In this document: positions 3,633 to 8,487 of the stretch, one piece after another | Numbering within the stretch: position 1 is the first letter of the stretch | Layout: the number at the start of each line of letters is the position of its first letter | Source of the DNA: an uncultured Saprospiraceae bacterium | Lineage (GTDB): Bacteria; Bacteroidota; Bacteroidia; Chitinophagales; Saprospiraceae | DNA length: 40,202 nucleotides | Assembly: GCA_938028705.1 (NCBI GenBank) | Contig: CALIZI010000083.1 | Location: 1 to 40,202, forward strand | Direction: 5' to 3' | Program-made: the position numbers and the translations under genes | The notes under the pieces: model-generated | Databases searched by the model: none | Seen by the model: the letters and a program-made list of their open reading frames with translations, nothing else | What the model was told of the DNA's origin: nothing

Positions 3633-6473
3633 TTAAAAATTATAGCCCAAAGTCAGATATATCATTGTACCCAATTGGCTGAAATGGTAGCCATCGTAAG
3701 TCATTTGTGAATAACGCTGATTGAATGAAATCAAATTGGATTGTACTTCGATGGGTGTAAGTCCGAAAGCATTGGTAGAAGTATCATCAATGATAGCTTG
3801 TCCTTCCTCGTTGTCGGCTTTAAATTCCCATTCCGGGAGTACATTGAGTAGGTTGTTGGCATTCAATGCGATGTTGAATTTGTCGTTGATATTATAATTC
3901 AAACCTAAATCAGTGACGATTTTTGGTGTAAATTCAGTGTATATATTAGCATTCAAACCTTGTTGTCTGAATAGTGTGGGTCCGAAAAGTGTGTTACCTA
4001 GTGTAACACCAAAACCGCCGATGTTGAAGTCCAATCCTAAAATAGCTTTGTATCTCGGACGTGAGGTGAAAAAGAGAGCTTCCTGTGTTGCATTGGCAAC
4101 AGACTGACCTGCTTGCTCTACGAGTTCAGGGTTTTTAATTTCACCATCTCTTTCGTTTTGTATCGTGTAATTACCGGAAAGGTTGATAGCGACTTTTCCT
4201 TCGCCTATTTGCAGACGACTGTAAGATGCTACAAAATCAATACCTGATGTACGGGTATCCAATCCATTAGCAAAGAAACTAATATCAGATATACCACTTT
4301 CCTCAAGAATAAGGTCTAAGTTCGTATTCCCTGCGTCAGTTCCGGTGATTTCGGAACCCAAAATAATACGGTCTTGTAATGCAATATTATAGTAATCAAA
4401 TGTCACGCTCAAACCCGAAACAGGACGTAAACCCAATCCAACGGTAATGTTGGTAGATTTTTCAGGCTGCAATTGTGGCAGTCCAAGCAGGCGCGCTTCA
4501 CGCGATACGTTGTTGACCAAACCACCAACTTGAATACCCTGACCGGGAACGAAACTGTATTGTACTTTTTGGGTATAAATCTGGTGCAAAGTCGGTGCTT
4601 TGAAACCCGTAGAAGCTGAAGCACGCAAGGTGACTCTATCTTGAGCGAGTTTGTAACGTGAACTAACTTTCCAGACAAATGCTTCACCGAAATCGCTATA
4701 ATCTTCGAGACGTGCTGTAGCATTAATCAGGAAATCGTCGGTCAAATCCAAAGCTACATCAACATATCCACCGAAATTGTACCGATTAAATTTACCGGAG
4801 TTGGCAGGGGCATTACCGGAGAATGAATCCGGTCCGCCGGCTTCGTAAGAAGATTCGCTACCTTCAATAATGGTAAAGTCTTCGGTTCTGAACTCCGAAC
4901 CTATGGCAAAGCTAAATTGGTCGCTAAAGCGTTTGGTGATGTCAATATTACCGACATTGTGTGCAAAGCGCGTTCCGCCTACGTCAAAAACAAGTGCGCT
5001 GTTTTCACGATATTTTTGAGAAAACGTTACCTCGTCATCTTGTTGTATTCCGTCAGCATTAGTATCTTCCCAGCTAGGCACCAATACTTCATTTCTGTTA
5101 TGCGAATTACTTACAATATAGGTTTGCTCATTGCTACCTGTGGTAAAACTTACATCCGTCATCCAACCGTTTTTGTTGGATTTGAAACCTACCGTACCGT
5201 TGTAGTCAATCAAGTCGCCGTCGAAAGTCGGCACATAACCGGCATAATCTAAATTACCATCACCATCTGCATCTTCATAACCATATTGATTGCCAAAGAA
5301 ACCTTCCAGATAAGGAAAATCATCCAGCGTTCTCCAATAAGGTGTACGATAGTTGGCAAAGCTGTTGACTTTTTTGTAAATGTATGCGGCATTACCATAT
5401 ACTTCACTTGTTTCACTGACTTTTTTACCTGCATTGACTGCAAATTTCATAGCAGTTGTTTCAGGCGAACCGTTGATATTTCCTGCGTCCGGTTTCTCAG
5501 CTAAAAAGGCTTCTACATCCGCGAGATCCGCACCAAAATCATCGGCTTCACCACCTGCACTCACCGTACCCGGGCGATTCGCCAAAAACTGTTTGGACAA
5601 ATCAATGGTGTAATTCAAGAAACCGTCTTCACCCAATTTTGCACCGTTGTTTAAGGCAGCACCGATGAGTTGTCCGTCACCTGCACTGGTGATACCTGTT
5701 CTCAAATTAAATCTTCCGCCATCTGTACCGTCTTTCAGGATGACGTTCATAACGCCCGCAATGGCATCAGAACCATACTGCGCCGATGCACCGTCTCTCA
5801 AAATCTCCACCCGCTTAATCATATCGGTCGGGATAGCTGAAATATCTGCACCTGTCTCACCGCGCCCCGGAGAGGTCTGAGTATAAAGCAAGGCACTCAT
5901 ATTTTTACGCTTACCGTTAATCAAAATCAAGGTACGGCTGGGTCCCATATTTCTGATTTCGTAAGGGTCGAGCAGCGACGTGGCATCATTGACCGGTGTT
6001 TGTACGGTATTGAAAGAAGGCACGCGATACTGAAGGGCTTTGTCGAAAGTGGTTTGACCTGTACTCGTCAGCTCAGTAGCTCTGAGTACATCCACCGGAA
6101 GCGGCGTAGTGGTCGAAGAACGCGGCGCAGTACGTGTACCCACGACTACGATACTTTCCAAACCTACCGCATTTTCGGACATCGAAACATCCCATGTTCT
6201 GGTCTCTCCTGCTCCTACGGTGAAATCCAATACCTGATCTTCATAACCAATGTAAGAAGCCGTAGCGGTATATCGTCCGGGTTCGAGATTGATGCTATAA
6301 TTGCCATCAATATCCGTAACCGAACCGCCACCGCCCGTTATGGTGACGGTGCCGCCAATCAAACCGCCCGTATCGTCGGAGAGCTTGCCGGAAAGCGTTT
6401 GTGCATTGACCATCAAGGGTAATGCCAAGAGAGCCACAAACAGCAGCCCAATGTTCGTTAGTGTACTTTTCAT
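3633..6473 (-). CDS. TonB-dependent receptor with CarboxypepD_reg-like domain
   Basis: This outer-membrane receptor imports an unidentified substrate using TonB energy. The start at 6473 is chosen over the upstream Met at 6533 because the protein then begins with a normal signal peptide (MKSTLTNIGLLFVALLALPL, cleavage after VNAQ). Residues about 25-105 form a carboxypeptidase-regulatory-like beta-sandwich (GKLSDDTGGLIGG, then GRYTATASYIGYED). A plug domain at about 115-250 follows, with VVVGTRTAPRSS near its start, NMGPSRTLILINGKR and ILRDGASAQYGSDAIAGVMN. The rest is a beta-barrel with an acidic DADGDGNLDY loop and a C-terminal phenylalanine (LTLGYNF). At 946 aa it has normal length. It is a single gene with no SusD partner, so it resembles iron, vitamin or peptide receptors more than the SusC type. 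Substrate unknown. Confidence 0.9.
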   Translation of the reverse strand: MKSTLTNIGLLFVALLALPLMVNAQTLSGKLSDDTGGLIGGTVTITGGGGSVTDIDGNYSINLEPGRYTATASYIGYEDQVLDFTVGAGETRTWDVSMSENAVGLESIVVVGTRTAPRSSTTTPLPVDVLRATELTSTGQTTFDKALQYRVPSFNTVQTPVNDATSLLDPYEIRNMGPSRTLILINGKRKNMSALLYTQTSPGRGETGADISAIPTDMIKRVEILRDGASAQYGSDAIAGVMNVILKDGTDGGRFNLRTGITSAGDGQLIGAALNNGAKLGEDGFLNYTIDLSKQFLANRPGTVSAGGEADDFGADLADVEAFLAEKPDAGNINGSPETTAMKFAVNAGKKVSETSEVYGNAAYIYKKVNSFANYRTPYWRTLDDFPYLEGFFGNQYGYEDADGDGNLDYAGYVPTFDGDLIDYNGTVGFKSNKNGWMTDVSFTTGSNEQTYIVSNSHNRNEVLVPSWEDTNADGIQQDDEVTFSQKYRENSALVFDVGGTRFAHNVGNIDITKRFSDQFSFAIGSEFRTEDFTIIEGSESSYEAGGPDSFSGNAPANSGKFNRYNFGGYVDVALDLTDDFLINATARLEDYSDFGEAFVWKVSSRYKLAQDRVTLRASASTGFKAPTLHQIYTQKVQYSFVPGQGIQVGGLVNNVSREARLLGLPQLQPEKSTNITVGLGLRPVSGLSVTFDYYNIALQDRIILGSEITGTDAGNTNLDLILEESGISDISFFANGLDTRTSGIDFVASYSRLQIGEGKVAINLSGNYTIQNERDGEIKNPELVEQAGQSVANATQEALFFTSRPRYKAILGLDFNIGGFGVTLGNTLFGPTLFRQQGLNANIYTEFTPKIVTDLGLNYNINDKFNIALNANNLLNVLPEWEFKADNEEGQAIIDDTSTNAFGLTPIEVQSNLISFNQRYSQMTYDGYHFSQLGTMIYLTLGYNF

Positions 6474-6510
6474 ACGTAAGTTAAAATTTTTAGTTCGTTG
6501 TGATATACCT

Positions 6511-6572
6511 GTACTGACGACGTTAGCCGTCAAGTGGTTTGGTACGCTACGACGGTTAAAGTCGTTGGTACA
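6511..6572. repeat. Imperfect inverted repeat (GACGACGTTAGCCGTC type)
   Basis: Left arm 6511-6532 (TGTACTGACGACGTTAGCCG at its start) pairs imperfectly with right arm 6551-6572 (GACGGTTAAAGTCGTTGGTA), roughly 16 of 22 positions. It lies in the leader of the receptor gene that starts at 6473, so it could fold in the 5' UTR. It resembles small dispersed palindromes. I see no protein-binding signature. Confidence 0.5.
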
Positions 6573-6585
6573 AAGGCATGAGTTC

Positions 6586-6593
6586 CAAATTTA
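6586..6593 (-). promoter_or_regulatory. Possible -7 element for the receptor gene at 3633-6473
   Basis: On the minus strand 6593-6586 reads TAAATTTG, matching TAnnTTTG. The -33 position (about 6612-6617) has only TTGTG instead of TTTG, so the assignment is weak. The implied leader of about 105 bases would include the inverted repeat at 6511-6572. Confidence 0.3.
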
Positions 6594-6789
6594 TCCTAGC
6601 CCGCCTAAATCACAACTTATTGGTTTGTTGATATTTTGTAATATCTAAATATTTAAACACGTAAAAGTACACTAAAATTTATATAATTCTAAAAAAGTGC
6701 AGTTAAAGTTGACTAGTGAATGACCACGACTTTTTTGTCGGACGGACGACTTATTGATTTTTATTATTTAAATTGGGGTTCATACTACA

Positions 6790-7275
6790 ACTGGACTTTG
6801 GATATTTTGGAAATTCGGTTTTAAATCGTAAGTAATTGATTATCAGGTATTTTTATTAAAATTATCAGGGAGAACGAAAAGTCGTTTAATAATGTGTAAT
6901 ATGTTGATTTTTAAAATTGTCGGGAAGCCTACTCGCCTTGCATTTTCAAAATGCAAGGCGAGTAAAATTTGGGCTACCAGTCAATAGTTGGACAGTCCAT
7001 AGTCCATAGTTGTCATAATAACTTGAATTTCAATGGGCTTGTAACTTGTTGATTGTCAAAGTGTCCAACGTTAGACGGGTAGCCAAAATTTGCCTTTTTT
7101 ATTTAAAATCAGATAATTATACATTTATTTTTTAATAAAATATTTTTATACTCATATTATAAAAACGACTTTTCGTTTGCCCTGAGTAATAAAATTCATT
7201 CAATTGATTATCAATGAGTTACGATTTTAAACCGAGTTTCCCAATTTCCTAATTCCCATTTTGTCCAAAGTCCAA
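6790..7275. repeat. About 490-bp multi-level nested inverted repeat
   Basis: At least three arm pairs nest around an AT-rich body: TGGACTTTGGA and AAATTCGGTTTTAAATCGTAA (6792-6833) against 7215-7275; TCAGGGAGAACGAAAAGTCG (from 6865) against 7163-7185; and the AAATTTGGGCTACC region (6965-6994) against 7063-7091. A stand-alone perfect palindrome, 17-base arms around one base, sits at 6930-6964 (TACTCGCCTTGCATTTT left arm). No coding potential is seen. It fills most of the gap between the starts or stops of neighbouring genes. Whether it moves, folds as RNA or is simply decayed repeat DNA cannot be told from one copy. Confidence 0.75.
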
Positions 7276-7365
7276 TACATAATAGTCCTTTCTACCTCTC
7301 TTTTCAATTACTATATATTGATAGTTGAGTTAGTCGATATGGATTAATTAAGTTCAAATCAAAAA

Positions 7366-7395
7366 AGCAGGACATCCATTACGGAATGCCCTGCT
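7366..7395 (-). terminator. Intrinsic terminator of the Cys-rich lipoprotein gene
   Basis: Stem AGCAGG-CAT / ATG-CCTGCT (AGCAGGACATCC pairing with GGAATGCCCTGCT, one bulge or mismatch) lies 25 bases after the stop at 7420. It is followed in the minus direction by a T-run (A-run 7361-7366 on the plus strand). Confidence 0.8.
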
Positions 7396-7419
7396 ACATT
7401 TTTATAAAAAATGTCTCTG

Positions 7420-8487
7420 TTAGAAACAATCATCTTCACAAGATACACCACTTGCATCTAGATTGATAAGTGTCGTGTTGTTGTAGTAAAATTCGTGATA
7501 CGTACTGGGAGTTCCGTAGCTAAAATAGAGGGTGTTTACGGGTAACAACTGTTTATAATAATTGATTTTCCAGCCTTTTTGTGTCCAGCCTGTACCATGC
7601 GTGACACTACCTAAAGCAGAATGAACACCATAACCTGTTCCCCACTTAATATCGTCATTCTTATTTTTCTTCCAACCGAAAGCTCCTTTTTTCTCAGATG
7701 TCATCTCGCAACTAACAGAAAGCGTACGTTCCCAATACAAATAGCAATGACAGCCCCAGTCAAATACGGGGTGAAGTTTCATATTGCTACGCCATTCACC
7801 ACTTACACGTTTGCTACCGTTTGAAGTACCATTATTGTCGGTGCAACTTCGCAATTGTCCGCAGTCACCTCTAAATTCTACATTATCTTGAACATATTTG
7901 AATACATAAATACCTTCTTCTTCATTGGTTTCCAATGATGCCAAAGCTCTATCAAGTTTAGTTTCGTCTTTATCCAAGATAATAATTTGATAGGTATCTG
8001 TAAAACAGTGCAGAACATTGCCGATGATGACTTTACCTTTTTCATCAAGCATAGCGGTCAATGCTTCATCAGCAATTGGGGCTTGAAATTCGTTTTCGGG
8101 ATTTACAAAATCACTGTTTTCAGAACGAAAAACATTCATCGAATTGTCATCTGTAATAGCTTCAAACTCGTCCATAGCTATTGCTACTTTTTGTCGCAAA
8201 GATGTGAAACCAGTTTTGTTTTCCCATGCAGTTAAGGCTTCATCTGTAAAAAATCGTTCTTCTGAATCTGAGATATAAGCTATCGCATCTTCAAATTCCT
8301 GAAGACCACTGAATTTTAGCATACCATTTTCGGTTTCTACATCAAGGTTAAATTCTGTGACCTTTTGATTGGTCAATACATTTGTTGGGTTGTCATTAAT
8401 AAGTGTCTCTTGTTCGCAAGAGGTCGTGAATAATGCAATTGCTGCCACAGCCAATAAGCTGAATAAAATACTTTTTACGTTTTTCAT
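7420..8487 (-). CDS. Cys-rich lipoprotein of unknown function
   Basis: The 355-aa product starts with a lipoprotein signal peptide (MKNVKSILFSLLAVAAIALF then TTSC, lipid-modified Cys24), so it is probably anchored in the outer membrane. The mature part has an acidic N-terminal half with LKFSGLQEFEDAIAYI and ALTAWENKTGFTSLRQK. This pattern recalls DUF4848-like Bacteroidota lipoproteins, a weak recollection. The C-terminal half is rich in Trp, Tyr and Cys (GDCGQLRSC, WGCHCYLYW, VSCEMTS, ending VSCEDDCF), which suggests disulfide bonds. It stands alone, with its own terminator and a long upstream gap (8488-9064) shared with a divergent receptor gene. I do not recognise a function. Confidence 0.75.
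   Translation of the reverse strand: MKNVKSILFSLLAVAAIALFTTSCEQETLINDNPTNVLTNQKVTEFNLDVETENGMLKFSGLQEFEDAIAYISDSEERFFTDEALTAWENKTGFTSLRQKVAIAMDEFEAITDDNSMNVFRSENSDFVNPENEFQAPIADEALTAMLDEKGKVIIGNVLHCFTDTYQIIILDKDETKLDRALASLETNEEEGIYVFKYVQDNVEFRGDCGQLRSCTDNNGTSNGSKRVSGEWRSNMKLHPVFDWGCHCYLYWERTLSVSCEMTSEKKGAFGWKKNKNDDIKWGTGYGVHSALGSVTHGTGWTQKGWKINYYKQLLPVNTLYFSYGTPSTYHEFYYNNTTLINLDASGVSCEDDCF

Follow-up and report, generated by a model that had tools for sequence, protein, structure and literature searches.

Bacterial MITEs are derived from insertion sequences, and the part of a review that was available here names them as places of homologous recombination (PMC10969869); the terms "nested" and "Bacteroid" have no matches in that part of the text. 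Element-in-element conglomerates of MITEs, PATEs and SMRs have been described from the archaeon Haloquadratum walsbyi, with 192 events of small elements inserting into others, some of them at near-terminal palindromes, according to the available part of that report (PMC3119063). Among repeats of the REP kind, including the GTAG- and CGTC-tagged palindromes, CGTC repeats are reported from Bacteroidetes among other phyla, again in the part of the source that was available (PMC3733652).

The palindrome in this study lies within a 40,202-nucleotide stretch of DNA from an uncultured Saprospiraceae bacterium (the window), and is a pile-up of three kinds of small non-coding mobile DNA, here named A, B and C, nested one in another. 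With the bacterial MITEs, MITEAba12 included, it shares short, non-coding elements with terminal inverted repeats, target duplications, many copies and ends in common with a transposase-bearing element, but here three unrelated MITE families are stacked one in another (PMC10969869 and PMC6382973, as far as the available text goes). The insertion of small elements into small elements, some at near-terminal palindromes, is also seen in the conglomerates of H. walsbyi, whereas PATEs have neither terminal inverted repeats nor target duplications and A, B and C have both (PMC3119063, available text). As with REP and the GTAG- and CGTC-tagged sequences, short palindromes are repeated through the genome, but the hairpin of this locus is built at a constant position into a larger element, which has ends and duplications of its own (PMC3733652, available text).

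The palindrome is best read as a composite of selfish non-coding MITEs without host function, formed in the four steps set out below, and a probability of roughly 0.85 is given to this reading. Explained in this way it is a poor candidate for a regulatory structure, and the locus preserves, as readable layers, three MITE-like families of a Bacteroidota genome, two of which are tied to transposases. Movement of A, B and C is read from their sequences throughout, rather than from observed transposition.

Extent, folding and distribution of the palindrome

Comparison with its copies places the limits of the imperfect palindrome at 6791 and 7275 (485 bp), in agreement with an earlier note on this DNA, which had described a palindrome of about 490 bp between two genes. 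On one side is a gene for a TonB-dependent receptor (3633 to about 6470, minus strand), and on the right is a gene without a Pfam family at 7420–8487, also on the minus strand, for which a terminator-like hairpin with a T tail can be seen at 7366–7395. A repeat search recovered inverted arms of 99 nt at 6789–6887 and 7163–7261 (72% complementary), inverted arms of 27 nt at 6792–6818 and 7248–7274 (78%), and the perfect 17-1-17 hairpin of the earlier note, with its halves at 6930–6946 and 6948–6964. Folding of 6785–7280 as one strand gave −170.6 kcal/mol as RNA (z −14.8) and −104.4 kcal/mol as DNA (z −15.2), and none of 100 shuffles was equally stable in either case; the fold is far more stable than those of shuffled sequences, contrary to one of the two outcomes that the note named as refuting it. 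Within 6791–7275 there is no ORF as long as 80 aa.

The arms and inner pieces also recur elsewhere in the genome, against the possibility raised in the note that no arm would have a copy. A 506-bp query gave at least 93 matches in the window's own genome (8.0 Mb, 483 contigs), a number in which the window and its self-complementary matches are counted and which comes from scoring the best 40 of 716 candidates. These matches split into modules with sharp borders, namely an outer arm, a core that is interrupted in the window, and a 113-bp inner piece, and it is the alignments of these modules that define elements A, B and C. Pieces of the palindrome are present in at least 11 of the 40 genomes of the search among relatives, including its own and all five of its genus, where the match counts per genome are lower bounds from the best 16 scored in each. 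One genome of the same family, G024, gave at least 16 matches, all at the right end of C among the matches listed. A 22-mer from the end of C was found in 32 contigs of Phaeodactylibacter sp. mag.15, a genus placed in the Saprospirales of the Bacteroidota (NCBI), and in one contig of an uncultured Saprospiraceae bacterium.

Element A and its partner

The outermost parts of the palindrome are arms of element A. The left arm (6791–6865, minus strand) begins CTGGACTTTGGA and, as far as the junction with B, is half of an A-prime MITE; it aligns with L035 and L037, both whole elements of the A-prime subfamily, and also with the left arm of another locus, L236. The right arm (7185–7275, plus strand) finishes GTCCAAAGTCCAA and is the right-hand half of a MITE of the standard subfamily, found at 27 other places in the own genome at 92–98% identity among the matches listed. 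Elements of this family are about 170–200 bp long and as a rule have two unlike arms, one of them AT-rich, as seen in the window, and the other with a terminator-like CCCGATAACTATCGGGACTTTTTT in 13 of 27 aligned copies.

The ends of A start TTRGACTTTGGACA or CTGGACTTTGGACA, and 235 places in the own genome carry the end motif TTTGTCCAAAGTC, compared with 0 for the reversed control, which implies about 118 A elements. Flanking duplications were read in 41 copies, these being the ones in the own-genome loci that were fetched, with the end definition that was the best of three offsets tried and was then controlled; the entry for the window was left out as a false pair ending inside C. An exact 7-bp duplication is present in 22 of the 41 copies and an exact 8-bp duplication in five, compared with 2/1640 and 0/1640 control pairs, respectively.

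A transposase-bearing element with the ends of A is found in the sister genome G002 (L237:593–2235), as an insertion sequence of 1,643 bp with perfect 14-bp ends CTGGACTTTGGACA and a 7-bp duplication, AAAGTAA. Its transposase of 501 aa belongs to DDE_Tnp_1 (PF01609), and scores E 4.1e-73 against the putative transposase model NF041680, with 246.9 bits where the cut-off is 440, so by that model it is a relative and not a member. A shares with this element the terminal GACTTTGGACA and the 7-bp duplication, and thus has the ends, the duplication and the autonomous partner expected of a MITE. The insertion sequence at L237 is the probable driver of the A elements; no such partner was seen in the own genome. 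A long spacing of A end motifs on contig C162 was considered as an A insertion sequence and was rejected, as the interval holds unrelated ORFs. At L236:1031–3010 (own-genome contig C479), an A element with one A-prime and one A arm has another insertion sequence within its CCCGATAACTATCGGG hairpin.

Element B

Element B occupies 6866–7184 (plus strand), and is made up of 198 bp of its own together with C and a single copy of the duplication made by C. Its terminal repeats are CAGGGAGAACGAAAAGTCGTTT and AAACGACTTTTCGTTTGCCCTG, with CAGGGNNAACGAAAAGTCGTTT as its ends. Seven copies in the own genome have both ends, and six copies were aligned; an exact 9-bp duplication flanks two of the seven and an exact 10-bp duplication three, with none found at the window copy or at L107. 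Insertion of B into A, with clean duplications, is seen elsewhere on contigs C257 (TTAATAAAA) and C259 (TTTTATTAT).

The ends and duplications of B are those of a MITE, and it is named MITE-like here because no autonomous partner turned up in draft assemblies, which break in repeats: a long element with B ends was absent among the pattern hits, with one mismatch, in the own and five sister genomes. An IS1595 transposase was considered as a partner and was set aside, as it rested on one weak match below the cut-off and the element in question has other ends, GGTAGTGT as judged by eye.

Several further repeats were seen around these loci. At about 1500–2250 of L062 (own-genome contig C349) there is an insertion sequence with ends GGTAGTGT, as judged by eye, which is unrelated to A, B and C and is presumably IS1-like. 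The flanks of L014, L015, L046 and L062 hold yet another repeat family, whose ends are GAATTTGGGCTAAAACTCGTC.GACATTT, and B lies twice in or beside a member of this family, at TGGGTACAAA (L014, L015). Outside B, the CTCGCCTTGCATTT hairpin stands at L048 between a preceding AAAA and a following TTTT, in the manner of a two-way terminator, and at L058 and L061 it is followed by TTTT.

Element C and its target site

Element C is a MITE of 113 bp at 6972–7084 (plus strand), GGCTACCAGTC...GACGGGTAGCC, of which the right 23 nt are identical to the end of the DUF6399 insertion sequence described below. A perfect 8-bp target duplication, AAAATTTG, borders it on both sides, with the left copy at 6964–6971, where it overlaps the last base of the hairpin, and the right copy at 7085–7092 (both plus strand). 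In five B copies without C, a single AAAGTTTG is found where the window has AAAATTTG twice, and these are empty sites. Among 34 C copies, found in the fetched own-genome loci by the end motifs GGCTACC.../...GGTAGCC with one mismatch allowed, the target duplication is exact in 25 and agrees in at least seven of eight positions in 28, leaving six below that level; mismatched pairs of flanks gave 1/1122 and 6/1122 at the same two levels. Terminal inverted repeats, a duplication of fixed length, no coding capacity together with many copies, and ends in common with an autonomous element, the properties of a MITE that were tested, were all found for C.

The presence of C directly beside the hairpin is the cause of the off-centre place of the latter, a feature to which the earlier note had drawn attention. 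This spot has probably been hit twice by C, because the hairpin locus on contig C411, which matches the window at 84% over 237 bp with flanks included, has its own C copy beside the hairpin, with ends one base away and a different duplication, TAAAATTT.

Proposed order of events

The proposed history would begin with the spread of A-family MITEs, for which the ends and duplications are seen directly and the action of the DDE_Tnp_1 transposase in trans is presumed. B, with its CAGGG... ends, 9–10-bp duplication and built-in hairpin, would then have inserted in the AT-rich middle of A, an event observed as such on C257 and C259. In a third step, a B within a reversed A-prime element and a B within a forward A element may have recombined, leaving like-facing A arms on the two sides of one B and hence the long outer palindrome; in a variant of this step, B copies in the same orientation would act as direct repeats and the DNA between them would be deleted. 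Finally C, which is related to the own genome's DUF6399 insertion sequence, would have inserted beside the hairpin, an event for which both the 8-bp duplication and the empty sites can be read. Its placement after the third step is conjectural, and C may alternatively have ridden along with B.

The earlier note had suggested that later repeats inserted into earlier ones. This agrees with C lying in B and B in A, but does not extend to the perfect hairpin, which the note took for a late insertion and which is internal to B. The locus as a whole appears to be mostly ordinary selfish DNA, made of nested MITEs and a probable recombination scar.

Alternative explanations

The hairpin (6930–6964, no strand assigned) could instead be a separate short mobile palindrome, similar to REP sequences, that inserted into B. 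Its size fits that of a 20–40 bp palindrome and it also stands outside B, with six of its 16 exact-pattern places in the own genome lying in aligned B copies; by eye, its feet show no GTAG or CGTC tag. It holds the same position in all six aligned B copies (the window and five others). Relatives of B in the sister genomes G002, G003 and G005 also have a pairing hairpin, with a different sequence and lying +34 to +59 nt away from the end motif (+42 in the window), and four of these loci have one hairpin in each half. Stems with at least 12 of 14 pairs were present in 25 of 31 B-end stretches and in 0 of 310 shuffled ones, where the 31 rows come from 23 chosen loci and are not independent, some hairpins being seen from both ends, and where two of 33 B ends were skipped as shorter than 80 nt. 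Among 11 distinct stems, which were drawn from rows already pairing at 12/14 or more and so favour pairing, 139 of 154 cells pair, a value reached by 0 of 1000 column shuffles, which ignore relatedness; six positions have changed on both sides, which 10 of 1000 such shuffles also reach. As the sequences are selected and related, both values serve as a guide only. An inserted REP-like hairpin is considered very unlikely. The same retention of pairing in sister species despite changed letters, together with the very strong fold on both energy models, could also be taken to indicate a functional RNA, whether terminator, attenuator or small RNA, acting for the neighbouring genes. Strong folding is expected anyway from the inverted repeats of MITEs, however, and copies of the modules stand on many contigs, while a scan of the window found 0 Rfam families. 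The sole terminator-like site in 6400–7500, at 7395–7366, is outside the palindrome and comes before it for the minus-strand gene, and the regions of G001, G003 and G004 that were read on either side of their TonB ortholog contain no match to the palindrome. A function of this kind for the palindrome is considered extremely unlikely.

The origin of the outer palindrome is a separate question, and here the alternative to recombination is that one symmetric element of the A family received B and that the duplications of both have since decayed. Both sides of the palindrome carry a right-type A arm, the left being A-prime, as in the whole elements L035 and L037, and the right being standard A, identical at 87 of 89 positions to the standard arm of L020. 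In 41 other A elements, a marker for the right-type arm is present in one direction only in 39, in neither in one and in both in one (L037); this last was rejected as a symmetric element, as the marker is near-palindromic and lies once in L037, leaving no A element with two right-type arms among the 41. The left arm of the window meets the same near-palindromic marker only at four mismatches, and not at three. No 7-bp duplication surrounds A in the window, where the flanks are ACTACAA and TACATAA, and the duplication of C is perfect while both A and B are without one. A symmetric element with decayed duplications would be in keeping with the many A copies that have no exact duplication, which is still shown by at most 27 of the 41, and with L236, where A-prime and A arms flank another insertion sequence. 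Against it, the arms come from different subfamilies and are 72% complementary over 99 nt, and exact duplications are kept in five of the other six two-ended B copies. It is considered unlikely, and slightly more so since L037 proved to be an artefact of the marker, and the outer palindrome is probably not a single element, as two arms from two A subfamilies point to recombination and not to insertion alone.

Recombination through B is thus the preferred origin, because the outer arms belong to different subfamilies of A, and duplications are missing here from A and B alike; the outer palindrome would then be a scar joined through B, as read from one locus and from missing duplications, which decay could also erase. 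Given L236, a second mixed A-prime/A composite without duplications, mixed arms may also arise in another way, and no reciprocal joint was seen by eye among the B ends that were read. The TonB receptor has orthologs that are 77–80% identical in G001, G003 and G004, and no right-hand gene of the window had a match in the stretches that were read upstream of them (18.5, 4.8 and 5 kb, respectively); the best relative of the gene directly to the right in the five sister genomes is only 30% identical. Because gene order upstream of TonB differs among these three genomes, synteny neither supports nor refutes a deletion. The mixed outer arms suggest how recombination between nested MITEs may make long palindromes, and scans for RNA structure will meet such palindromes again.

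The DUF6399 insertion sequence, partner of C

The pattern GACGGGTAGCC is present at 48 places and led to contig C85, the first 1,689 bases of which (L113:1–1689) are an insertion sequence that starts GGCTACCCGTCTAACG and finishes GTCCAACGTTAGACGGGTAGCC. Its right end is identical to that of C over 23 nt and its left end over 7. At least seven further contigs of the own genome (C37, C47, C123, C161, C229, C333 and C464) are cut inside such a copy, and the 8-mer TACTTAAT is common to the two outer sides of the contig ends of C37 and C229, both of which lie inside the insertion sequence; this is taken as the target duplication of one copy. An ORF beside a C end on contig C162 was considered as a second DUF6399 gene and was rejected, with 0 Pfam families.

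The element on C85 has two overlapping frames of 180 and 368 aa, the second of which matches Pfam DUF6399 (PF19936) with an E value of 9.3e-43; no NCBIfam model was above its cut-off for either frame. The family is present in two of 149 genomes of the order, the own genome and G139, whose element (L167:1–1670, contig G139:C112) bears GGCTACCCGTCTAAAGTTGGACAG at its ends and likewise has two frames that meet in the same CCTTTTTTTGAAGAAG overlap. Both copies have GGCTACCCGTCTAA... at both ends, and their own target duplications are unreadable because each begins at the first base of its contig. Searches for relatives of the protein in genomic contigs, a set that may omit records near the own genome, and in viral contigs (two scans) found none, no PDB match by sequence was below E 0.069, and a full-text literature search for "DUF6399" found no paper in the collection searched.

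These results make DUF6399 a likely insertion-sequence transposase, an interesting by-product of the analysis of the palindrome. Judged from its sequence, the protein would be a DDE transposase made by a −1 frameshift, with both frameshift and fold as predictions; the frameshift is suggested because the two-ORF elements of C85 and G139 share the CCTTTTTTTGAAGAAG overlap. The Pfam entry lists the domain as of unknown function, whereas here it would form the C-terminal portion of a DDE-like transposase that is encoded by two ORFs and has defined ends. The domain so gains ends and a target duplication, along with a conserved frameshift site and a candidate catalytic triad, which makes its role testable by a simple transposition assay. 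A broader proposal is that there is an undescribed family of insertion sequences whose transposases are the DUF6399 proteins, encoded by a single ORF in cyanobacteria and by two ORFs in Bacteroidota through a conserved −1 ribosomal frameshift in CCTTTTTTTGAAG, so that ORF1 supplies the first catalytic Asp, and ORF2 the second Asp as well as the Glu; that this family spawns MITEs which land beside the hairpin of other MITEs; and that palindromic scars, left where nested MITEs such as B in A have recombined, are marks of deletions. Taken jointly, these statements are held to have slightly better than even odds.

A collection of plasmids held four records matching the DUF6399 protein, and the two that cover most of it are cyanobacterial, each with a single ORF annotated as "DUF6399 domain-containing protein". 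When the joined Bacteroidota frames are aligned with these two single-ORF proteins, the candidate catalytic residues D, D and E follow in order within GxDE, VSDxAxAL and EGRNGYL, and are invariant in the four sequences from two phyla; the second Asp and the Glu were seen in a further alignment as well.
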